This document shows positions 4,706-34,475 of a DNA stretch of 64,000 nucleotides, in pieces. This DNA comes from Lutibacter sp. A64 (GTDB lineage Bacteria; Bacteroidota; Bacteroidia; Flavobacteriales; Flavobacteriaceae). The notes beneath the pieces are model-generated. The model did not search any database. It had not been told where the DNA came from and worked only from the letters and a program-made list of their open reading frames with translations. Positions within the stretch are counted from its first letter, which is position 1, and every line of letters starts with the position of its first letter. Location of the stretch: positions 1,273,001 to 1,337,000 of the forward strand of contig NZ_CP092487.1 in NCBI RefSeq assembly GCF_022429565.1, given 5' to 3'. The position numbers and the translations under genes are program-made.

Positions 4706-5530
4706 CTATTTCGAATTTGATGTTCTAAACATAAAGTACAATCCCATTAAAACTAATGGTATGCTTAAAACTTGACCTGTATTTAAACCTAAAATCCAAT
4801 TTTCTCTACCTTCAACTTGAGCTTCTTTAAAAAATTCAATTACAAATCTGGCAAAAAACGTCAACGCAAAATACATTCCGAATAAATACCCTAATTTTTG
4901 TTTTTTATTAGTTTTCCAGTATATAAACCACAAAATAGCGAATATTATTACATAACTAATTGCTTCATATAATTGCGCTGGATGACGCGGAAAATCTTCT
5001 CCTAAACGTTGAAAAACAAAACCATAATCGGTTCCTGTAGGTTTTCCAATAATTTCAGAATTCATTAAATTACCAAGCCTTACAAATGCACCACCAATTG
5101 CTGAGACTATAACAACCCTATCTAATATAAATAGCAAGGGTTTTTTAAGTACTTTTCTACTATATAAATACATTGCTATTATTGCTCCAATTACAGCACC
5201 GTGACTAGCCAAACCGGCAAAACCTGTAAACTTAAATGTTGGAGAAAATTGAAATGGTAAAATTACTTCTAATGGTTTTCTAAATAAAAACTCTGGATCG
5301 TAAAACAAAAAATGCCCTAACCTTGCTCCTATTAAAATTGAAATCACCATATAAATAAAAAGTGAATCTAATTTTTCAAGTGGAATTTTTTCATTGATAA
5401 ATATTTTTTTCATCAAATGCAATCCTAATGTAAATGCAATAACAAACATTAAGCTGTAATAACGAACTGCAAACGAACCAATTTTAAATATTTCTGGTGC
5501 CGGATTCCAATCTATTTGAAGTAATATCAT
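4706..5530 (-). CDS. lgt: Prolipoprotein diacylglyceryl transferase
   Basis: Lgt transfers the diacylglyceryl group from phosphatidylglycerol to the lipobox cysteine of prolipoproteins in the inner membrane, the first step of lipoprotein maturation. The 274-residue product has about seven membrane segments. It contains the family signature RLGNLMNSEIIG and the conserved GARLGHFLFYDP stretch, as well as the HPAQLYEA segment. Length is normal. It is the last gene of a cysS-yidD-lgt operon, 17 bases behind yidD. Several lipoproteins with typical lipoboxes are encoded elsewhere in the window (for example at 15304, 16043, 16575 and 17681). Confidence 0.97.
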   Translation of the reverse strand: MILLQIDWNPAPEIFKIGSFAVRYYSLMFVIAFTLGLHLMKKIFINEKIPLEKLDSLFIYMVISILIGARLGHFLFYDPEFLFRKPLEVILPFQFSPTFKFTGFAGLASHGAVIGAIIAMYLYSRKVLKKPLLFILDRVVIVSAIGGAFVRLGNLMNSEIIGKPTGTDYGFVFQRLGEDFPRHPAQLYEAISYVIIFAILWFIYWKTNKKQKLGYLFGMYFALTFFARFVIEFFKEAQVEGRENWILGLNTGQVLSIPLVLMGLYFMFRTSNSK

Positions 5531-5547
5531 TTTAAAATGTATAAAAT

Positions 5548-5808
5548 TTAATTATTTTTTTCTTTTGTTTTCGGTTTTTCTGGAACTGGATCATAGCCAC
5601 TTCCACCCCAGGGATGGCAACTACCTATTCTTTTTATTGCCAACCAACCTCCTTTAAAAATTCCATGAACTTTTAAAGCTTCAAGCGTGTAACTAGAACA
5701 AGTTGGAGTATATCTACAAGCAGATGGCGTATACGGTGAAATTGCTGCTTGGTAAAAACGCACCAACCAAATAAAAGGAATTGCTAATATTTTTGCTATA
5801 CTTTTCAA
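5548..5808 (-). CDS. yidD: Membrane protein insertion efficiency factor YidD
   Basis: An 86-residue amphipathic protein of the YidD family, which assists YidC-dependent insertion of membrane proteins. Diagnostic segments are RFYQAAISP (about 17-25), the cysteine-containing [11 protein letters not shown] (31-41), and the end motif [17 protein letters not shown] (about 60-76). One base separates it from the end of cysS and 17 from lgt, so the three are co-transcribed. Length and motifs are intact. Confidence 0.96.
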
Positions 5809-5809
5809 A

Positions 5810-7288
5810 TTAATTTACTGAAAAAGTAGTTCCTTCTTTTCCATCTTTTAATTGAATTCCTAAATCTGCTAACTGATCTCTAATTTTATCAGACAATGCC
5901 CAATCTTTATTAGCTCTTGCATTTTTTCGCATTTCAATAAGCATAGATACAACACCCGATAATTTATCTGAACTATCTTCTTGCAACTCATTTTTAAGTC
6001 CTAAAACATCAAATACAAAAGCGTTAATTGTTGTTGCAAAATCTTGTAAATCTTCTTCTGAAATTGTTGCTTTCTTTTCAATTAGTAAATTAATATATTT
6101 AACAGCATCAAATAAATTAGCAATTAACATTGGAGTGTTAAAATCATCGTTCATAGCATCGTAACATTTTTGTTTCCATGCTTTAAAATCTAACGATGAA
6201 GTTTTACCTGCTTCAATTTTATCTAAACTACTTACGGCTTCCATTAATTTAATATATCCTTTTTCTGAAGCTTCTAATCCTGCATTTGTAAAATCTAAAA
6301 TACTACGGTAATTAGCTTGCAACATAAAAAAACGCGTTGCACTTGGTGAAAATGCTTTACTCAAAATTTTATTATTTCCTGAAAATATTTCATTCGGTAA
6401 AATAAAATTCCCTGTTGATTTTGCCATTTTCTGACCGTTTAAAATCAACATATTTGCATGCATCCAATAATTTACAGGATTTACACCATTATTAGTTTTA
6501 GATTGTGCTATTTCACATTCGTGATGTGGAAATTTTAAATCCATTCCACCACCGTGAATATCAAAAGTTTCACCTAAATATTTTGTACTCATAGCTGAAC
6601 ATTCTAAATGCCAACCCGGAAAACCATCGCTCCAAGGTGAAGGCCAACGCATAATATGACGTTCGTCTGCTTTTTTCCATAGTGCAAAATCTTGTGGGTT
6701 TTTCTTTTCTGATTGTCCGTCTAAAGTTCTTGTATTATGAATAGAATCTTCAATATTTCTACCTGAAAGAATACCGTAATGTTCGGTTTCATTGTATTTT
6801 AACACATCAAAATACACCGATCCATTCACTTCATAAGCTAATCCTTTAGCTAAAATATCTTTAATTATTTCAATTTGTTCAACTATATGTCCAGTTGCGG
6901 TAGGTTCTATACTTGGCGGTAAATTATTTATAGTTTGCAAAGTATTATGGAAGTCAACGGTATAACGTTGTACCACTTCCATTGGTTCAATCTGCTCTAA
7001 ACGTGCTTTTTTAGCAATACGATCTTCACCTGCATCAGCATCGTTTTCTAAATGACCAGCATCGGTAATATTACGCACATAACGTACTTTATAGCCTAAA
7101 TGTTTTAAATAACGGAAAATCATATCAAAAGACATAAATGTTCTTACATTTCCTAAATGTACATTGCTATAAACTGTAGGACCGCAAACATACATTCCAA
7201 CTTTTCCGTCTATTACGGGTTTGAAAATTTCTTTAGTTTTAGTTAAAGAATTGTATATTTTTAGCTGATTTGATTTGTATAATTCCAT
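5810..7288 (-). CDS. cysS: Cysteinyl-tRNA synthetase
   Basis: A 492-residue class I aminoacyl-tRNA synthetase that charges tRNA-Cys. The HIGH motif appears as HLGN at residues 44-47, preceded by the zinc-ligand cysteine C35 in YVCGPTVYS. Further zinc ligands lie in WHLECSAMS and FPHHECE. The KMSKS loop is KMAKSTGNF, near residue 290. The C-terminal anticodon-binding DALR-like region is present. First gene of the cysS-yidD-lgt operon. Complete and ordinary for the family. Confidence 0.98.
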
Positions 7289-24182: not shown

Positions 24183-24917
24183 ATGGGAAGAATTACTGAA
24201 GCTGTTAAGCACATTATAATTATAAATGTAATTTTATTTATTGCACCACAACTTATTCAAGGATTTGACTTGCAAAGTATGTTTGCGCTCTATTTTCCTG
24301 AAAATGAAAAATTTGGGTTTTGGCAATTTGCAACACATATGTTTATGCACGGAGGATTCTCTCATATACTTTTTAATATGTACGGTTTATGGGCTTTTGG
24401 TACGCCTTTAGAACAAATGTGGGGACGAAATAAATTTATATTTTTCTATCTTTCTGCAGGTTTAGGTGCTGGTATTATTTATACTTTAGTTAATTATTAC
24501 CAATTTAACGGAGTTTATGATCAACTAATAAATATGGGATTATCAAGTTCAGATATTCAAAATATTTTAAATACTGGTAGTTATGATAACCGTATTTTAG
24601 AAACGCTTTCAGAATCTAAATTGAGTGAATTTTATGCAACCTACCACACTCCTGCAGTTGGTGCATCTGGTGCAGTTTACGGAATTTTGGTTGCTTTTGG
24701 AATGAGTTTTCCAAATGCTAAATTAGCATTGATATTTTTTCCTGTACCTATTGCTGCTAAATACTTTATTCCTGCAATTATTTTAGGAGATTTATTTTTT
24801 GGAATGACTAAATATTCTATTGGAAATGTAGCACATTTTGCACACGTTGGTGGTGCTTTAATCGGATTTTTAATTGCTTGGTATTGGAAACAAAACCAAT
24901 TTAAACGCTGGGATTAA
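24183..24917 (+). CDS. Rhomboid-family intramembrane serine protease (first copy)
   Basis: A 244-residue rhomboid with about six membrane segments. The catalytic serine is in VGASGAVYGILVAFG (about residue 162) and the histidine in HFAHVGGALIGF (about 221). The HMFMHGGFSHILFNMYGLWAFG region is also typical. Between spans two and three is an unusually long polar loop (about 103-150). Rhomboids cleave membrane-embedded substrates; the target is unknown. It is followed directly by a second rhomboid. Confidence 0.93.
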   Translation: MGRITEAVKHIIIINVILFIAPQLIQGFDLQSMFALYFPENEKFGFWQFATHMFMHGGFSHILFNMYGLWAFGTPLEQMWGRNKFIFFYLSAGLGAGIIYTLVNYYQFNGVYDQLINMGLSSSDIQNILNTGSYDNRILETLSESKLSEFYATYHTPAVGASGAVYGILVAFGMSFPNAKLALIFFPVPIAAKYFIPAIILGDLFFGMTKYSIGNVAHFAHVGGALIGFLIAWYWKQNQFKRWD

Positions 24918-24918
24918 C

Positions 24919-25764
24919 TTGAATATAATTAACGACATAAAAGAAGCCTTTAATAAAGCTAATATTGTAGAAAAAATAATTTATATAAATGTATTTTTAT
25001 TCTTAATTACAGTGCTCTCAGTTGCTTTTAAGAGTAATTTTATCATACAATGGTTTGCTTTGCCTACAAATTTTGAAAGTTTTTTATACAAACCATGGAC
25101 TTTAATTTCGTATGCATTTATACACGAAAGGTTACTACATATACTTTCTAACCTGCTTATACTCTATTATATTGGAAATTTATTTTTAGATTTTTTCACA
25201 AAAAAACAATTTTTAAATTTCTACTTTTTAGGAGCTATTATAGGTGGTATTGCTTTTTTAACTTATAATTATTTTACAGTAAAAAACGGGGCTCCTTTAG
25301 GAGGTGCTTCTGCAGCTGTTAGTACTATTTTTGTTGCTATTGCTACAAAAATTCCAAGATATGCTATACAACTACGCTTTATTGGTAGTGTAGAGTTATG
25401 GGTACTTGCGGCAATATGGGTTTCTATGAGTATACTGCAATTAACAAATCCAGACAATGGTGGAGCAATTGCGCATTTAAGCGGTGCTTTGTTTGGATTT
25501 ATTTATGCCAATCAATTACAAAAAGGGAACGATATAGGTAAATGGTTTGAAAATATTATAAATTATTTTACTAATTTTATAAAACCTAAAAAAAATTCGC
25601 CTTTAAAAACAGTTTATAAATCTAAAGGCCGTTATTCTAAAAATGATGTATCAATACCTAAACAACGAAAAATTGATCTTATTTTAGATAAAATCAGTAA
25701 ATCTGGTTACGAAAGTTTAACACAAGAAGAAAAAGATTTTTTATTTAGGGCTGGAAAAAATTAA
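24919..25764 (+). CDS. Rhomboid-family protein (second copy)
   Basis: About 281 residues. The frame extends to an ATG at 24874 inside the first rhomboid, but the TTG at 24919, one base after the first gene stops, gives a sensible start (LNIINDIKEAF). Six membrane spans lie in the first 200 residues, then a cytoplasmic C-terminal tail ending in a helical SGYESLTQEEKDFLFRAGKN motif common in Bacteroidota rhomboids. The serine motif is GGASAAVS instead of GxSG, and the histidine is in AHLSGALFGF. Serine and histidine are kept, so activity is plausible but less certain than for the first copy. Confidence 0.85.
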   Translation: MNIINDIKEAFNKANIVEKIIYINVFLFLITVLSVAFKSNFIIQWFALPTNFESFLYKPWTLISYAFIHERLLHILSNLLILYYIGNLFLDFFTKKQFLNFYFLGAIIGGIAFLTYNYFTVKNGAPLGGASAAVSTIFVAIATKIPRYAIQLRFIGSVELWVLAAIWVSMSILQLTNPDNGGAIAHLSGALFGFIYANQLQKGNDIGKWFENIINYFTNFIKPKKNSPLKTVYKSKGRYSKNDVSIPKQRKIDLILDKISKSGYESLTQEEKDFLFRAGKN

Positions 25765-26950: not shown

Positions 26951-29077
26951 ATGAAAAAATTACTTTCGTTTTTATTTATTTGCACCTTTATTTTAGGGTA
27001 TTCTCAACAAAAAGAACTATCTATAGAAGATGCTGTTTTAGGCTATTATAAAGGATTGTATCCAAGTTCGCTATCCAATTTACAATGGGTAAAAAACAGC
27101 ACTAATTATGTTTTTCTAAAAGAAAATGAGTATGTTTTTACAAGTGCCAAAACTGGTGATATTGTTGAAAAAACTAACTTAAATGATTTAAAAGAAGCAT
27201 ATCCTCAATTACAAAGAATGCCATACATTCAAGAAATTAATGCTAGTTCTTTAGCTTTTAGAACTAGAAACTCTATAGAAATTTTTAATTACAAAACAAA
27301 TACAAAACAAGCAAGCATTACTTTTGATGACAATGCTGAAAATAACGAATATAATTCTAAAGCAAATGCTGTTGCCTACACAATTGACAATAATTTATAC
27401 ATTGCAACTGCTTCAAACCCAAAAATTACCGTAACAGAAATTGAAGATAAAAATATAGTTTCTGGACAAGCGATACACAGAAGTGAATTTGGAATTACAA
27501 AAGGAACTTTTTGGAGTCCGGAAGGAAATTATTTAGCATTTTATCAAAAAGATGAAAGTAATGTAACAGATTATCCTCTGGTAGATATTAACACCTACCC
27601 TGCTTCATTAAAAAATATAAAATACCCAATGGCAGGACAAGCTAGTGAACAAGCTAAAATTGGTATATTTAACCTAAAAACTCAAAAAACCACCTATTTA
27701 GATATTGATACTACAGACGAACATTATTTAACTAATTTGTCTTGGACACCAGACGAAAAATATGTGTTGATTGCTGAAATAAACAGAGGTCAAAATCACG
27801 TTTGGTACAATACATACAATATAACAACTGGCAAAAAAGTTGCTACACTTTTTGAAGAAACTAGTGATAAGTGGACAGAACCAGAACACGATGCAGTGTT
27901 TTTACCAAATAGTACAACTAACTTTTTATGGTTTAGCGAACGTGATGGCTTTATGAATTTATACCATTACACAACAGCAGGTAAATTAGTGAAACAACTT
28001 ACAAAATTTAAATGGGTAGTAACTGATATTTTGGGTTTTGATGAAAAAGGAAAAAATGTTTTTATTACTGGAACTGGTGAAGATGCGAGAGAATCTCACA
28101 CCTACAAAGTAAATATTAAAAATGGAAAATATACAAAATTAACTTCTGAAAACGGTTCTCATAGAACTAAATTAAGTACAAACGGTGCTTATTTAATTGA
28201 CAGTTATAGCAATTTAGAAACTCCAAACAATACTTTAATAATTGACACCAAAAAAGAAACATCTACTCAAATATATACAGCTAAAAATCCTTTAGAAGAT
28301 TATGCCATTGGAACTACAGAGTTTATAACTCTAAAAGGAAATGATGGAACAGATTTATATTCTAGAGTAATAAAACCTGCAAATTTTGATCCTTCAAAAA
28401 AATACCCTGTTTTAATTTATGTTTATGGAGGTCCACATGCACAAATGAATACAAATACGTGGCTTGGAGGTGCTAGTTTATGGATGCCTGCTTTTGCTAC
28501 TTTAGAAAATTATATCATTTTTACTTTAGACAATAGAGGATCTGCAAATAGAGGTTTTGCTTTTGAAAGCAGTATCCACAGAAATTTAGGAGATCTAGAA
28601 ATAGAAGATCAATTAACTGGTGTTGAGTATTTAAAATCTTTAAACTACGTAGATGCTAATAGAATTGCTGTAAATGGCTGGAGTTTTGGCGGATTTATGA
28701 CTACAAGTTTAATGCTTCGAAACCCAGGAATGTTTACAACCGCTGTTGCTGGTGGACCTGTAATTGATTGGAAATATTATGAAGTTATGTATGGCGAACG
28801 CTATATGGATACCCCACAAGAAAACCCTGAAGGTTATAAAAAAGCAAAAGTTAGCAATTACATTAAAAATTTAGATGGTAAAATGCTAATCATACACGGA
28901 AGTGTAGATCCAGTAGTTGTACCACAACACAGTATGAGTTTATTACAAGAAGCTGTAAAACAAAAAACTCAAATAGACTTTTTTACTTACCCAATGCACG
29001 AACATAATGTAGGTGGATTAGACAGAGTACATTTAATTAAAAAAATGACGCAATATATTGTTGAAAACAACAAATAA
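26951..29077 (+). CDS. Dipeptidyl peptidase IV-like S9 peptidase
   Basis: A 708-residue exported serine peptidase (signal peptide ending near LGYSQQ). An N-terminal beta-propeller DPP IV domain (about 40-440) is followed by the alpha/beta hydrolase domain (about 465-705). Catalytic serine in GWSFGGFMTTS (near 581), aspartate in IHGSVDPVV and histidine in PMHEHNVGG. The double-glutamate-like entry is not checked in detail. It removes N-terminal dipeptides, often Xaa-Pro, from peptides in the periplasm. Single-gene unit with a strong terminator after it. Confidence 0.93.
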   Translation: MKKLLSFLFICTFILGYSQQKELSIEDAVLGYYKGLYPSSLSNLQWVKNSTNYVFLKENEYVFTSAKTGDIVEKTNLNDLKEAYPQLQRMPYIQEINASSLAFRTRNSIEIFNYKTNTKQASITFDDNAENNEYNSKANAVAYTIDNNLYIATASNPKITVTEIEDKNIVSGQAIHRSEFGITKGTFWSPEGNYLAFYQKDESNVTDYPLVDINTYPASLKNIKYPMAGQASEQAKIGIFNLKTQKTTYLDIDTTDEHYLTNLSWTPDEKYVLIAEINRGQNHVWYNTYNITTGKKVATLFEETSDKWTEPEHDAVFLPNSTTNFLWFSERDGFMNLYHYTTAGKLVKQLTKFKWVVTDILGFDEKGKNVFITGTGEDARESHTYKVNIKNGKYTKLTSENGSHRTKLSTNGAYLIDSYSNLETPNNTLIIDTKKETSTQIYTAKNPLEDYAIGTTEFITLKGNDGTDLYSRVIKPANFDPSKKYPVLIYVYGGPHAQMNTNTWLGGASLWMPAFATLENYIIFTLDNRGSANRGFAFESSIHRNLGDLEIEDQLTGVEYLKSLNYVDANRIAVNGWSFGGFMTTSLMLRNPGMFTTAVAGGPVIDWKYYEVMYGERYMDTPQENPEGYKKAKVSNYIKNLDGKMLIIHGSVDPVVVPQHSMSLLQEAVKQKTQIDFFTYPMHEHNVGGLDRVHLIKKMTQYIVENNK

Positions 29078-29112
29078 TTACGCTTACAACATTATAAGTA
29101 GAATTTTGCAAT

Positions 29113-29150
29113 AAAAAAGAGGAAATCTAACATTAGATTTCCTCTTTTTT
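29113..29150. terminator. Bidirectional intrinsic terminator
   Basis: Perfect 18-base arms separated by CA: an A-run with GAGGAAATCTAA pairs with TTAGATTTCCTC and a T-run. It lies between the peptidase gene and the convergent YeeE-rhodanese gene, and has T-tracts on both strands. Confidence 0.9.
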
Positions 29151-29198
29151 ATAGAATATTTAGTTTAAAAGCTCATTAAAAACTAAATCAAATACTGT

Positions 29199-30395
29199 TT
29201 AACAACCTCCTTGAATTTTAACCTCTTTTACCTTTATTGGAGCCGATAAATTTTTAAGTGATTCTGTTAAAATATTCATTTTAATAATTAAATCCTTTCT
29301 GTAATTATAAATCTGCATTTCAGATTTTAAATCTTCATTTGGCATTTTAATATCAGTAGAAAATTTTTCTTTAAACGTTTTAGAATTTTCAGTTAATATA
29401 AAATTTTCAGAATTTCCAAGATAACTTGCCCACACATAAGTTTTTCTTACTAAACTTTCATCATCTGCATAAAAATAATTTGCTTTTAAGTTTTGGGTAA
29501 ATACTTTATGCCATTCTCTATTTCCAAGCTCTTCAAACGGAATATTTATTGCCATAGGTAAATGATACGCTTCATATTCTTCTGGCGAACGAACATCAAT
29601 TACATTAATTTTATAATAGTTATTTGCAATTTCAAACGCAAGGGCATCTGAATCAACTTCATTAAAAATAATATTTTGTTGTATTTTAGGATCTTCTATT
29701 TTTTGGGCAATAACTTCCTCTTTTGAAGGAGTTATTGTAATTAACACCAACGTTATAAATGCTAATGAAATACCCGATATATAAACTATTATTTTCTTTT
29801 TAGAAAAATTAGATTGACGCTTACTAACTTTATCTTCAATTTTATGTGTAAAGTAGAAAGCTAAAAAAGCAATTGCCGTAAGAAGAAATGCAAAAGCCAA
29901 CTTAGACATACCAAGCATTTCATTCATTAATACGGGTCCCCAATTTTCAGCTAAATAAATAGTTTCAAAAAACGGATATGCTTCTGCAAATATTATAATT
30001 CCAATAGCAGATCCAAAAACAAATGCTAATCCGTCAATTTTGCCAATTGCAGCTGCACAAACACTTGTTCCTGGACAAAACCCTCCAATAACAAATCCTA
30101 AGCCCATAATGGCTCCACCAACCAATGCTGACCACAAAAAAGTAGGGTTTACATAGATTAAATTTAAATCTAAAAATCCAAAATGTGATAATAACAACAC
30201 ACCAATCATAGCAGTTACTCCTGCTGTAAAAAACACTTTAAGAACCGTAAAATCGTATCCGTAAAATAATCCTACTAATTTTTTTGTGGATGAAAATCCT
30301 GCTTGTTCTAATGCAAATCCAAAGCCTATACCCGATAAAAGTGCTATTACAAGGCTAAATTCGTTACTAAAAATGTAAGGTACTAATGGTCCCAT
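29199..30395 (-). CDS. YeeE/YedE half-transporter fused to a rhodanese-like domain
   Basis: About 398 residues from the ATG at 30395 (the frame goes on to a TTG at 30416). Residues 1-180 are YeeE/YedE (thiosulfate/sulfur transporter) membrane helices with the conserved GGFCPGTSVCAAA. After another span (about 205-222) comes a periplasmic rhodanese-like domain (about 240-345: INVIDVRSPEEYEAYHLP). At the place of the catalytic cysteine the sequence reads YFYADDESLVRK, with alanine, so sulfur transfer through a persulfide is unlikely. The C-terminus is helical and ends GGC, which may offer another cysteine. Last gene of an operon with a second YeeE, a cytochrome b and an octaheme cytochrome c. 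Confidence 0.88.
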   Translation of the reverse strand: MGPLVPYIFSNEFSLVIALLSGIGFGFALEQAGFSSTKKLVGLFYGYDFTVLKVFFTAGVTAMIGVLLLSHFGFLDLNLIYVNPTFLWSALVGGAIMGLGFVIGGFCPGTSVCAAAIGKIDGLAFVFGSAIGIIIFAEAYPFFETIYLAENWGPVLMNEMLGMSKLAFAFLLTAIAFLAFYFTHKIEDKVSKRQSNFSKKKIIVYISGISLAFITLVLITITPSKEEVIAQKIEDPKIQQNIIFNEVDSDALAFEIANNYYKINVIDVRSPEEYEAYHLPMAINIPFEELGNREWHKVFTQNLKANYFYADDESLVRKTYVWASYLGNSENFILTENSKTFKEKFSTDIKMPNEDLKSEMQIYNYRKDLIIKMNILTESLKNLSAPIKVKEVKIQGGC

Positions 30396-30403
30396 ATTAT
30401 AAA

Positions 30404-30919
30404 TTATTTTAACCAAAGATTTCTAAAAAAATATGCAAATGCGTATGCAGACCCAAATATGGCCAACATTGTAATTATGCCTCCAAACGACATCACTCCC
30501 ATTCCGCTTAAAGCAGAACCACTGGTACAACCTCTTCCTAATTGTGAACCAAGTCCAAATAATAAACCTCCAAGTATGGCAGTTCCAATACGTGTAACTT
30601 CGCTTACTTTAGCTCCACGTTCTAGCTGTAAGCCAACACGATTAGATAAAACACCTGAAAAAAAAGCACCAATAACAACTCCTATAACTTCCCAAACAAG
30701 CCAATCTTTTAAGGGACCATCATGAGTTTCTGAAAATTCTTTCAAATATGTAGTGTTTGCTGTATGTTCTGGCGCTAATTCAACAATAGAACTTAGTGCT
30801 ACACTTTTTACAGCTCCACTTGCACCTAAGCCTCTACCTGTAATATATATAGTTCCCAATAAAACTAATCCTAAAATTAAACCCGCCAAATACGGATTCA
30901 TGTATGCTTTTGATTTCAT
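30404..30919 (-). CDS. YeeE/YedE-family half-transporter
   Basis: A 171-residue membrane protein of the YeeE/YedE family, about half the size of fused TsuA-type thiosulfate transporters. The hallmark LGRGCTSGSALSGMG is at about residues 123-137. The second hallmark, GFCPGT, is on the partner protein encoded next, so the two probably form one heteromeric transporter. A polar loop of about 40 residues (44-82) lies between spans one and two. It starts within an ATGA overlap with the cytochrome b gene. Confidence 0.88.
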   Translation of the reverse strand: MKSKAYMNPYLAGLILGLVLLGTIYITGRGLGASGAVKSVALSSIVELAPEHTANTTYLKEFSETHDGPLKDWLVWEVIGVVIGAFFSGVLSNRVGLQLERGAKVSEVTRIGTAILGGLLFGLGSQLGRGCTSGSALSGMGVMSFGGIITMLAIFGSAYAFAYFFRNLWLK

Positions 30920-31590
30920 TGTTTTACTTTTTTAGTTGGGTTAACATCATTCTTTTCTTCTTCTTTTTTCTCACTAGTTTTAGGCGTATCTTCCAAATCT
31001 TCATAACCTGTAATCATTGCATTTATGTTCGATGTTGGAGTTTCACCAGTAGTTGTCATATACACATGTACAATTAAAAATACGATCAATAAAATAGCTC
31101 CTAAAGTGTGCCAAAAGGCAATATCTTCTAGTGGATAATCTTCTACAATTACAATATTATTTTCATCAAAAGATTTATATAACATATACATAATTCCAGA
31201 AATTAAAGTCATTGGAATTAATACCAATTTAAAAGATAAGTACACCAAACGCTGTAGTGGATTTAATTTTCTTAGCTGTGTTTTTTTAGTAGGATGCTGT
31301 TTTCCTCTAAACATATCTACTAAATAATATCTTAGCTGTTCTTTTAAATTTTTTGTTGTTGGAATGTATTGTCGCCATTCTCCAGTAGTAAAATGCCAAA
31401 AAATAGAAATTACAATAAGCCCCAAAAGCAACCAAGAAGCAGTTCTATGAAATGCTACAGCTTTTTCAAATCCAAAAATATCAAAAGTGCCATGTACTTC
31501 GAAACCTGTAACGGCTAAAAACATAATTAATGAAGCTTGAGACCAATGCCAAAACCTCTCAAATCCTTTATAAATATATACTTTACTCAT
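30916..31590 (-). CDS. Cytochrome b/b6-type membrane subunit
   Basis: A 224-residue di-heme cytochrome b-like protein with four membrane segments. Candidate heme-ligand histidines sit in GFERFWHWSQ (about 11-20), AVAFHRTASW, WHTLGAILL and LIVHVYMTTTGE. The family (NarI/thiosulfate reductase cytochrome b, Ni/Fe-hydrogenase b) passes electrons between quinones and periplasmic cytochromes. The tail (190-224) is charged and lysine-rich. It lies 20 bases after the octaheme cytochrome gene and is the likely quinone link for it. Confidence 0.9.
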   Translation of the reverse strand: MSKVYIYKGFERFWHWSQASLIMFLAVTGFEVHGTFDIFGFEKAVAFHRTASWLLLGLIVISIFWHFTTGEWRQYIPTTKNLKEQLRYYLVDMFRGKQHPTKKTQLRKLNPLQRLVYLSFKLVLIPMTLISGIMYMLYKSFDENNIVIVEDYPLEDIAFWHTLGAILLIVFLIVHVYMTTTGETPTSNINAMITGYEDLEDTPKTSEKKEEEKNDVNPTKKVKQ

Positions 31591-31609
31591 ACTATTAATT
31601 TTAAACTTT

Positions 31610-33226
31610 TTATGAATCTAACCTATCTGGTTGTTCTTCTTTATTATGATCTATTACTTGTTTTTTATACCTGTTATGTTTAAGATCTTGCCCTATGCGT
31701 AACCCTGCATGACTTACTACTCCAAAAACGGCAAATATCAACAACCATTTACCAACTGCGTCTAACGTTTTATTAGTGTCTCTTCCTGGTAAATAAAAAC
31801 CTGTTAAATTTTCTAAACGTCCACCAGTACGTGTATGGCAATCTACACAGCTTAATGCTTTATCTTTTGGTGAAACCATGTGATTTAAAGGCCAATAACT
31901 TTCAGTTTTTATAAAATCGAATTTACCACTATAAGGTTGACCTGCTATTTCCATTCCCTTTTTAGCCGCTGTTACCCAATTAAAATCGTTCCAATATGCA
32001 CTATCACCTTTTTTATCACCATATAATAAAGGTTGAATTATACGCTTATATTCAGTGTCGTAAATTTGATTTCCTCTATGTATTTTTACAGGAATAATTT
32101 TTGAATTTCTATCGTTATAAGAACCATGAAGGGTATTCATTTTAACAACATCAGTAGTAATACTATCACCTAATCTATATTGTTCGGCTGTTCCATTAAA
32201 CCATACATAATCTGGTTTTACATTTCTTTGCCAATCAAAAGATCCTTTAATTGATAGATAACTATGATTACCTAATGAATCTTCTATAGAATAAGGTTCA
32301 CCATCTTTTAATTTTCCTGCATCAGACCAATTCCAAGACATTTTTGTTGAATTAACCTTAGCATACTCTGGAATATGGCAGGTTTGACAAGCTATTTTTG
32401 AACCATGACGGTTTAAAACATCGTTAAAATGAGGTGTTGTAGTATGACAATCTTGACATTTAGCGCGGTTAATATTGTTTGTTGATACCGAATAAAGTTT
32501 CCCTTTAATTTGATGATTTGTTGCTGTATGGCAAGCAACACACTCCATATTCATACCGTTTGTAGCCATATGAACATCTACTTCTCTATCGCATGAAAGT
32601 TGTGCCACTTCTAAATCTCCGTGTTTTACATTGTTTCCTCCTCCACTAAAAAAGTGACAAGAACCACAGTTATTTCTAGTTGGTAAACCAACACTTTGCG
32701 CTACATTTTCTAAATTAACTGTTCTATCTGGATAACCAGCCATTGAAGAACCTTTAAAATATTCTTCACTATTATCATGACAAACCATACAATCTACATT
32801 TCGTGCATTTGTAAAATCGTAATGGTTACTATCCATTCCAAAACCAATATGGCATTTAGCACAAGATTTTTCATTCGAATTAGCTCCAATACAAAAATTA
32901 TTTAACACATTTTTTTTACCTGAAGCATAAACACCTTTACCCTTTACATACGAAAGTCTATCCCAATTCCAGTGAGATGAAGCCATTACTTCTTTATGAG
33001 TTTCTGTATGACAAGTAAGACACGTTTCTGTAACTTCTTGAGGTGTTTCAAACTTTTTATGTAAAACATCTAACTTATGATGATCAACTGATGGAACAGC
33101 TTTAAATGCATATTTTTGCTTTAACTGTTCTAATTTTAAATTAGCTGGCTCATCTTCATGAGAAACATTTACCGCTACTAACGTTGCAATTATAATCACA
33201 ATTACAATAATTATAGATTTATACAT
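31610..33226 (-). CDS. Octaheme c-type cytochrome, tetrathionate reductase (OTR) family
   Basis: A 538-residue exported multiheme cytochrome. Eight CxxCH motifs are visible: CLTCH, CAKCH, CMVCH, CGSCH, CVACH, CQDCH, CQTCH and CVDCH. The spacing and the CMVCHDNSEEYFKG segment match the octaheme tetrathionate reductase family, whose Shewanella member reduces tetrathionate, nitrite and hydroxylamine in vitro. An N-terminal signal anchor (4-19) and a C-terminal membrane span (about 493-510) with a charged tail anchor it to the membrane. It leads an operon with cytochrome b and two YeeE proteins, one carrying a rhodanese-like domain, which points to a sulfur-oxyanion role. The direction of electron flow cannot be decided from sequence. 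Confidence 0.92.
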   Translation of the reverse strand: MYKSIIIVIVIIIATLVAVNVSHEDEPANLKLEQLKQKYAFKAVPSVDHHKLDVLHKKFETPQEVTETCLTCHTETHKEVMASSHWNWDRLSYVKGKGVYASGKKNVLNNFCIGANSNEKSCAKCHIGFGMDSNHYDFTNARNVDCMVCHDNSEEYFKGSSMAGYPDRTVNLENVAQSVGLPTRNNCGSCHFFSGGGNNVKHGDLEVAQLSCDREVDVHMATNGMNMECVACHTATNHQIKGKLYSVSTNNINRAKCQDCHTTTPHFNDVLNRHGSKIACQTCHIPEYAKVNSTKMSWNWSDAGKLKDGEPYSIEDSLGNHSYLSIKGSFDWQRNVKPDYVWFNGTAEQYRLGDSITTDVVKMNTLHGSYNDRNSKIIPVKIHRGNQIYDTEYKRIIQPLLYGDKKGDSAYWNDFNWVTAAKKGMEIAGQPYSGKFDFIKTESYWPLNHMVSPKDKALSCVDCHTRTGGRLENLTGFYLPGRDTNKTLDAVGKWLLIFAVFGVVSHAGLRIGQDLKHNRYKKQVIDHNKEEQPDRLDS

Positions 33227-33686: not shown

Positions 33687-34475
33687 ATGATATTAATTAG
33701 CGAAGACAAAAACTCAATTATAAAAATTGATAAAGGAGAATTAATTAGCTATAAAAAAAATGGCGAAGAATTAATTCATCAAAAAAAGAATCCAGGTTGG
33801 AAAAATTCTGATACAGAAATGTTCCCAATAATTGGTCCAACTAACGCTAATAATTTTATAGTTTCTACTCCAAAAGGAAACTACAATCAAGACCAACATG
33901 GTCTTTTACGAGAATTAGAATATACGCTTTTTCATCAAGATGATACTAGTTTTGTTTTTCAAAAAAAATATGCCGCTTATACTGCCGTAGAAAACTCTAA
34001 ATATCCCGATAAATCTACTGTCCGTTTAATTTCTTGGCCTTATAGTTTTAGTTTTCAAAAAAAAATTGAATTAGAAAATAATGGCTTAAAAATTTCATTT
34101 AAAATTAATACTGAAAAAGGAATGCCTTTTATGCTTGGTTACCATCCTGCTTTTATGTTAAATGGTAATTTAGATGAAGTAATTGAATCTAAAAACCAAC
34201 AAATAACTATTCCTACAATTATTGAAGGTGGTAGTAAAGCCTTTTCAATTTTAAATACTAACGAAGTTAAATTAATTAAAAAAGAAGGTTATAATCTAGC
34301 TATTAAAACTAAAGGCTTTAACAATTTTATGTTGTGGACAGAGGTTTCTAATATGTTATGTATTGAGCCAATTACTGCGTATCCATATGTTGGTAAAGAA
34401 ATGCTTTCAGAAAAATTATTTAACAAATCTAATGGATTAGATCAATTTGAAGTTTCAATCACACCTTACAGTTAA
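33687..34475 (+). CDS. Aldose 1-epimerase-family protein
   Basis: A 262-residue protein of the galactose mutarotase / glucose-6-phosphate epimerase fold. Seen are PIIGPTN, the DQHGLLRELEY segment with the first conserved histidine, and LGYHPAFML with the second. The C-terminal ITAYPYVGKEM carries an acidic/aromatic region. It probably interconverts sugar anomers in the cytoplasm (no signal peptide). The sugar is unknown. Single gene. Confidence 0.88.
   Translation: MILISEDKNSIIKIDKGELISYKKNGEELIHQKKNPGWKNSDTEMFPIIGPTNANNFIVSTPKGNYNQDQHGLLRELEYTLFHQDDTSFVFQKKYAAYTAVENSKYPDKSTVRLISWPYSFSFQKKIELENNGLKISFKINTEKGMPFMLGYHPAFMLNGNLDEVIESKNQQITIPTIIEGGSKAFSILNTNEVKLIKKEGYNLAIKTKGFNNFMLWTEVSNMLCIEPITAYPYVGKEMLSEKLFNKSNGLDQFEVSITPYS

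Follow-up and report, generated by a model that had tools for sequence, protein, structure and literature searches.

The cellular role of the octaheme cytochromes c of the OTR family is unsettled, and tetrathionate, nitrite and hydroxylamine are all named for it in descriptions of these enzymes (PMC4484225, PMC6449678). The Shewanella enzyme is described as interacting with the periplasmic tetraheme STC (PMC4484225), and for a recombinant OTR from Beggiatoaceae a tetrathionate reduction of up to 93 umol per min per mg is reported, significantly above that of nitrite, with the authors' caution that a tree alone cannot predict the substrate of an OTR (PMC6449678). Among carriers and transporters of sulfur, SoxYZ is described as a carrier with a peptide swinging arm (PMC5336275; Sauve 2007, cited in PMC12997753), full-length YeeE/TsuA proteins are described as thiosulfate transporters (PMC13047784, PMC11582611), as which the E. 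coli tsuA gene is also annotated, and PmpA and PmpB are reported as two short Sulf_transp half transporters with one conserved key cysteine each (PMC11582611). Elements resembling all of these meet in a four-gene cassette of Lutibacter sp. A64 that lies at positions 29199 to 33226, on the minus strand, of a 64,000-nucleotide stretch of its genome (the window; positions 1,273,001 to 1,337,000 of contig NZ_CP092487.1, assembly GCF_022429565.1).

In order, the four genes encode an OTR, a cytochrome b, a first YeeE/YedE half (YeeE-A) and a second half that is fused to a rhodanese domain (YeeE-B/rhodanese). The first two genes are 19 nt apart, the second and third overlap by 4 nt, and 8 nt separate the third from the last, a spacing from which we infer that they are probably co-transcribed. 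The octaheme cytochrome scores 561.6 bits against TIGR04315 (cut-off 375), and like the Shewanella oneidensis OTR (1sp3; E 6.7e-125, aligned over residues 50–472), which belongs to the same family, it has eight hemes and a lysine (K201) at the position of residue 153, which is presumably a ligand of the catalytic heme. Unlike that protein, it has a C-terminal transmembrane (TM) anchor (residues 487–506 by hydropathy, besides an N-terminal signal- or anchor-like stretch at 1–25) and stands in an operon with its own cytochrome b and a sulfur transporter. The cytochrome b scores 87.6 bits against PF01292, and its best NCBIfam model is PhsC, the cytochrome b of thiosulfate reductase (NF011582; 106.8 bits, below the cut-off of 204), although the cassette differs from Phs and Psr reductases in having an octaheme cytochrome and no molybdenum subunit.

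Against PF04143 (cut-off 27), the transporter halves score 62.8 bits (the GRGCTSG half) and 51 bits (the GFCPGT half). This pair resembles PmpA/PmpB in its two short proteins with one key cysteine each, but one of its halves continues into a cysteine-tailed rhodanese-fold domain, and the fused protein has six TM-like stretches against the four given for PmpA/PmpB (PMC11582611). An earlier note, made by a model from the letters of the window, had named an OTR with its own membrane anchor, a cytochrome b in the same operon and two half YeeE/YedE proteins between which the hallmark motifs are split, and the family searches bear it out on all three. For the last gene it was right about the YeeE half, but it did not mention the rhodanese domain with its Gly-Gly-Cys (GGC) end. 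The start of this gene is probably ATG 30395 and not TTG 30416, because relatives begin with MGPLVP or MAPLVP. Elsewhere in the same genome, at about 2.67 Mb, a second and different split YeeE-like pair was seen (positions 936–1914 of the extracted locus; motifs GGCTSG and GACPGP), whose second member is above the DUF6691 cut-off and which adjoins a Crp-like regulator, with no redox genes in the 3.4 kb seen.

The best clue to the mechanism of the cassette is the pseudo-rhodanese with its terminal GGC. Past the YeeE half, the last protein continues with a basic loop, a sixth hydrophobic stretch (residues 200–224) and the rhodanese domain (26.2 bits against PF00581, cut-off 22.2) and ends in IQGGC. 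In the AlphaFold model, residues 241–350 have a pLDDT of 81–92 per ten-residue block and the last four residues fall below 50. The VIA-align matches covered chiefly the rhodanese part (238–347), and the best of them, a rhodanese-fold protein, matched model residues 240–345 with a Z score of 15.8 at 2.7 Å over 103 residues. By the positive-inside rule, basic loops face the cytoplasm, which would leave the rhodanese domain in the periplasm; that stand-alone homologues of this domain begin with a hydrophobic, signal-anchor-like stretch fits such a placement.

How general these features are was judged from the neighbourhoods of OTR matches in phylum, family and genus genome draws and from named loci (the best 80 of 102 confirmed). 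These gave 141 OTR-bearing loci, including the window and three weak matches (L075–L077), and 134 after removal of OTRs at least 97% identical. The dereplicated OTR loci yielded 99 fused homologues, of which 96 stop at GGC or no more than two residues past it (61 GGC, 25 GGCS, 5 GGCA, 3 GGCG, 1 GGCT, 1 GGCGI), and the three exceptions (L123, L141 and L155), which stop early or run into unrelated residues, look broken or mis-assembled. In the same loci, a GGC end occurs in 102 of 115 closed open reading frames (ORFs) matched by the YeeE-B or rhodanese query, against 6 among the 1848 other closed ORFs that reach 150 aa, two of the six being two-domain rhodaneses beside an OTR.

The column of the catalytic cysteine, located by alignment with an active-type rhodanese domain as ruler, is occupied in 103 fused proteins by alanine (67), glycine (22), serine (12) or aspartate (1), with one gap. 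No cysteine stands in this column or directly next to it in any of the 103, and the tail cysteine is present in 101. The 26 separate rhodaneses (counting a split fragment of the fused gene of L123 and the near-identical pair L212/L213) have serine (18), glycine (4), alanine (2) or cysteine (2) in the column, and three have a cysteine within one residue; 24 have the tail cysteine, the two others being extra copies in L080 and L140. The tails of separate rhodaneses are mostly lysine-rich and then GGC or EGC, or RMGC. The tail cysteine is also missing from rhodanese matches that do not lie near YeeE genes (for example the 758-aa proteins of L113 and L115). Since the search model was built from fused rhodaneses, weaker relatives may have been missed.

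SoxY has a Gly-Gly-Cys motif on its C-terminal arm, and the window protein likewise has a cysteine at a Gly-rich C-terminus of the kind proposed to act as a swinging arm. In contrast to SoxYZ, however, the arm of the window protein sits on a rhodanese fold that is attached to a transporter, with no soxZ among the four genes. A Pfam scan of the fused protein down to E 1 found no SoxY domain (PF13501) and placed Sulf_transp and Rhodanese over their cut-offs; a SoxY search of the whole genome gave no matches, and its control matched nowhere either. The soxY gene also occurs beside otr, and there we take it to encode another cysteine-arm carrier. A second likeness is to Sud, the periplasmic rhodanese that feeds polysulfide reductase in Wolinella, in that a protein of sulfurtransferase fold stands next to a sulfur reductase, but the window rhodanese lacks the catalytic loop cysteine, has a cysteine at the C-terminus instead and is tethered to the membrane.

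The gene order around these proteins is widely kept. Cytochrome b, both YeeE halves and the rhodanese lie downstream of the OTR on the same strand in 100 of the 134 dereplicated loci, and in 98 of the 120 that have at least 2500 nt of downstream sequence. These 98 are the window, 68 of 69 named loci and 29 of 50 loci from genome draws; L171, whose rhodanese escaped the first query and scores 37.5 bits in Pfam, would be the 99th. The other 21 comprise 11 loci without any partner, 8 with the cytochrome b only and 2 (L071 and L072) with both YeeE halves but without this cytochrome b. In L071, the OTR, YeeE and YeeE/rhodanese genes are followed at 5256–7154 by a multiheme c protein whose membrane part weakly resembles b561 (22.4 bits, cut-off 30.1), and the rhodanese ends in GGLCS. 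The named cassettes carry the labels Lutibacter (ending at the contig end), Prolixibacteraceae, Marinilabiliaceae, Ignavibacteria, Zixiibacteriota, Fibrobacteria, Planctomycetales, Acidobacteria and Bdellovibrio, though organism labels of metagenome-assembled genomes may err; among cultured bacteria, Draconibacterium orientale, Marinilabilia salmonicolor and Thermophagus xiamenensis carry the cassette. The same gene order in other phyla rules out an oddity of Lutibacter, and heme count, family scores and conserved gene order exclude a chance assembly of neighbouring genes. The earlier note had staked its reading in advance on a survey of OTR–YeeE linkage, and this linkage is kept in relatives across several phyla.

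Residue conservation follows the same lines. All eight CXXCH motifs and the lysine at K201 are present in 130 of 130 strong OTR homologues (three weak ones excluded), seven histidines of the cytochrome b and Cys131 of YeeE-A in 102 of 102 cassettes, and the cysteine of GFCPGT in 99 of 99 fused proteins, while a hydropathy rule finds the C-terminal anchor on the OTR in 99 of 100 full cassettes (the exception, L123, has a short C-terminus). Over 102 loci, Mantel correlations with the OTR distances are 0.85 for cytochrome b, 0.73 for YeeE-A and 0.79 for YeeE-B/rhodanese (best of 200 permutations, 0.14), which shows common inheritance of the unit and not contact, because related organisms give correlated distances anyway. 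A conserved fifth gene was rejected, as clusters outside the four core ones reach at most 15 dereplicated loci. A fairer figure than the scan of named loci is given by an even draw of the phylum, in which an OTR scores above the cut-off in 55 of 395 genomes and a match to the fused protein occurs in 67; by comparison of positions, the transporter–rhodanese module lies next to an OTR in 36 of the 55. A universal link between OTR and module was rejected, as 19 of the 55 are without it.

The module also occurs apart from OTRs, and its company there is telling for the substrate. From 31 genomes with a match to the fused protein and no adjacent OTR, 19 were fetched and, with a second locus of one of them, gave 20 loci. 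In 15 of these, a stretch of at most 7 kb carries on one strand the genes of a molybdopterin subunit and of FeS and NrfD-like proteins together with those of YeeE-A, YeeE-B and a rhodanese, and in all 20 the rhodanese ends in cysteine (GGC 5, EGC 11, MGC 4). One of the remaining five (L213) lies on a contig too short to tell, and four are without either reductase; beside three of these four modules there is a two-domain rhodanese, the fourth being L220. Molybdopterin subunits encoded beside OTR cassettes in L080 and L101 have PhsA as their best model (451 and 460 bits, below the cut-off of 694). The OTR and molybdenum cassettes stand side by side in L101, L140 and L142, while L080 has a single same-strand run made up of molybdenum genes, the module, a two-domain rhodanese with a GGC end, the OTR and the cytochrome b. 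An obligatory partnership of the module with OTRs was rejected, since it occurs with PhsA-like genes or a two-domain rhodanese as well. OTR plus cytochrome b and the PhsA-like complex look, from this exchange of neighbours, like alternative engines for one carrier–transporter module, and the exchange is the strongest argument for a sulfur substrate. Large multiheme cytochromes were also seen near the molybdenum module (L080 11014–12909, ExtM-like at 234 bits, below the cut-off of 800; L214 14954–16858; L217 1433–4150; L229 1337–4126).

We therefore propose that the cassette encodes one membrane-bound periplasmic sulfur machine, in which a tail-cysteine carrier is served by interchangeable quinol-linked reductases, the OTR being one of them, and give this proposal a probability of roughly one half. 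From the parts we infer an arm function, a direction, a substrate and a fate of the sulfur along the following lines. Quinol would be oxidised by the cytochrome b and electrons would pass to the OTR, which would reduce an oxidised sulfur species, be it tetrathionate, thiosulfate or the sulfonate end of an arm-bound group. The GGC tail would be a swinging arm as in SoxY that bears, on the periplasmic side, either a sulfur atom or a thiosulfonate group and shuttles sulfane sulfur between the OTR and the YeeE cysteines, which would pass sulfur through or into the membrane. The pair of OTR and cytochrome b would be a molybdenum-free stand-in for the PhsA/PsrA-type reductase of related bacteria. 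The earlier note had tied sulfur chemistry to the quinone pool, a claim that has been strengthened by the gene order across phyla and by the PhsA-like link of the transporter module. In favour of the proposal also speak the higher activity of the Beggiatoaceae OTR on tetrathionate than on nitrite (PMC6449678), the soxY and soxZ genes beside otr in lucinid symbionts (PMC11237559), and a host genome that has no PF00384 match and has a separate NrfA-family protein for nitrite.

Free tetrathionate or thiosulfate, which the same note had considered, is a possible substrate; the union of the OTR with a transporter that ends in a flexible cysteine tail suggests that the OTR may act on sulfur delivered by a carrier arm. 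Only tentatively do we go one step further and see here a sulfur carrier of a new class: a pseudo-rhodanese, tethered to a transporter, whose sulfur cysteine may have moved from the loop to a flexible tail so as to present protein-bound sulfur to interchangeable reductases, in which case the substrate of the anchored OTR would be a sulfonate or polysulfane on the arm and not free tetrathionate or nitrite. All parts belong to known families, and the new element appears to be their combination together with a rhodanese that bears a SoxY-like tail cysteine on a transporter. The literature searched, with subscription journals mostly outside it, yielded no description of an OTR–YeeE–rhodanese cassette or of a GGC-ended rhodanese and nothing usable on Lutibacter, Draconibacterium or Marinilabilia with sulfur compounds.

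Several points weigh against this proposal. The OTR of the window itself was the query for the named loci, which are therefore biased to cassette-type OTRs (68 of 69 full, against 29 of 50 from the draws), and the molybdenum-gene profiles that the 15 loci match derive from only a few proteins, all encoded next to OTR cassettes. Among the 55 OTR genomes of the even draw, 13, all of one family (7 of their neighbourhoods were read), show no match to the module, and in 6 every OTR is unlinked to it; OTRs without the module exist, and the core OTR reaction would therefore not need the arm. A plasmid of Photobacterium encodes an anchored OTR and, after it, a cytochrome b of PF01292, with no recognisable YeeE or rhodanese among the ORFs listed. 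A Caldithrix whose genome combines an OTR with Psr/Phs genes close to two single-domain sulfurtransferases is reported to have respired neither sulfur nor thiosulfate, though it reduced both to sulfide during growth on peptone (PMC5317091). No biochemical data on a cassette protein were found in the literature searched, and the direction, reductive or oxidative, rests on analogy. Finally, the host genome has no match to the TusA family (PF01206; the control matched 11 of 14). Sulfur uptake as the purpose of the unit, as the earlier note had it, did not gain from this, and import into the cytoplasm was not strengthened; because TusA is the usual cytoplasmic partner, the YeeE pair might be a membrane relay rather than an importer.

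Outside the cassette, an OTR of Paracoccus ferrooxidans is followed by an unannotated cytochrome-b-like stretch, seemingly interrupted in frame, and on the megaplasmid of this organism (L179, 415–9530) the OTR gene comes after a suf/cysteine desulfurase cluster. The Photobacterium and Paracoccus versutus plasmid regions have no annotated features.

Of other explanations for the cassette, the one that survives best, though we think it unlikely, keeps the arm and turns the direction round: the OTR would oxidise sulfane sulfur on the GGC arm, as SoxCD does on SoxY, and electrons would enter the quinone pool via the cytochrome b. The tail resembles the SoxY arm, and octaheme enzymes carry out six-electron chemistry on a bound group. 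In sulfide-oxidising lucinid symbionts, moreover, soxY (soxY-S3) and soxZ are described as adjoining otr (PMC11237559). The swap partner of the OTR is, however, a PhsA/PsrA-like reductase set, and the thiosulfate/tetrathionate couple, given as +198 mV (PMC9562282), is awkward for quinone reduction. Many of the named cassette bearers also carry the labels Prolixibacteraceae or Marinilabiliaceae, families that are largely anaerobic fermenters.

A nitrogen role appears rather improbable to us. The OTR would then reduce nitrite or hydroxylamine in vivo and the YeeE and rhodanese genes would be unrelated or protective, for which speaks, and equally against our own proposal, that the Shewanella OTR is reported to reduce nitrite and hydroxylamine besides tetrathionate and is placed in nitrite ammonification (PMC4484225); the Beggiatoaceae OTR also reduces nitrite (PMC6449678). 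Yet sulfur-transport and rhodanese genes adjoin the OTR in 98 of 120 loci, other neighbours, which were taken without a family scan, include none common to more than 15 dereplicated loci, and the host genome already has a separate NrfA-family protein for nitrite (585.8 bits).

We give still less credence to assimilation, in which the unit would scavenge thiosulfate-type sulfur for biosynthesis and the OTR would only condition the substrate for YeeE. It can appeal to thiosulfate transport by the full-length YeeE/TsuA proteins (PMC13047784, PMC11582611), but for that purpose an octaheme reductase together with a dedicated cytochrome b looks expensive, a TusA/TsuB-family partner is absent from the genome, and within the genus just 3 of 38 genomes have an OTR over the cut-off. 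That the true substrate is selenium or some other chalcogen or metalloid oxyanion is very improbable: a YeeE half weakly matches YedE selenium-transporter models (24.7 bits with a cut-off of 350 and 23.2 bits with one of 200), but a selenium transporter was dropped as a reading because no SelD in the host genome is over the cut-off (73.9 bits against 125), and the swap partner is PhsA-like.

No molybdopterin oxidoreductase (PF00384) was matched in the host genome (the control matched 11 of 14), and an OTR is over the cut-off in 2 of 299 genomes of the family draw, the host's own being counted in this figure and in that for the genus. The window OTR is 84% identical to that of the named Lutibacter locus and at most 72% identical to those of other named loci (among the best 80 of 102). 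The window has the cassette between an S9 peptidase gene (26951–29077) and an aldose-epimerase-like gene (33687–34475), and the OTR is beside the latter in all three OTR-positive genus genomes. In 19 of 28 loci of the genus found by the epimerase-like gene, the S9 peptidase gene adjoins it (less than 200 nt end to start) and there is no OTR; six of the 28 are uninformative or different. Since these two genes adjoin without an OTR, the cassette may well have been gained between two old neighbours, with many losses as a less simple alternative.

The features of the locus are collected in the table. The hairpin between the cassette and the peptidase gene, which none of 200 shuffles equalled, is probably a bidirectional terminator; it is absent from the list of a consensus promoter and terminator scan, which returned 28 promoter-like sites against 27.1 expected. 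A tRNA scan of the window found none. At 24183–25764, two tandem rhomboid-like genes were named from ORF reading, with no family search made.

Table. Features of the OTR cassette and its downstream border (positions in the window).
Feature	Position	Strand	Evidence
OTR-family octaheme cytochrome c, 538 aa	31610..33226	-	TIGR04315, 1sp3, eight CXXCH, K201, hydropathy
b561-type membrane cytochrome b, PhsC-like, 224 aa	30916..31590	-	PF01292, NF011582, seven conserved His
YeeE/YedE half with GRGCTSG (YeeE-A), 171 aa, PmpA/PmpB-like	30404..30919	-	PF04143, Cys131
Membrane part of the 398-aa fused protein (N-terminal, about residues 1-191): YeeE/YedE half with GFCPGT	29823..30395	-	PF04143, GFCPGT Cys, predicted model
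Remainder of the fused protein: basic loop, sixth TM-like stretch, rhodanese fold lacking the catalytic Cys, Gly-Gly-Cys tail	29199..29822	-	PF00581, fold match, alignment
Hairpin of 19 bp separating the cassette from the convergent S9 peptidase gene	29105..29160	.	-22.8 kcal/mol, z -8.41

A near-universal cysteine arm beside anchored cassette OTRs, common to PhsA-like reductases as well, makes the role of these OTRs directly testable. Read as proposed here, the cassette would be a marker for molybdenum-free sulfur respiration in sediment Bacteroidota and other phyla, and its last protein suggests a route by which a rhodanese can become a SoxY-like carrier.

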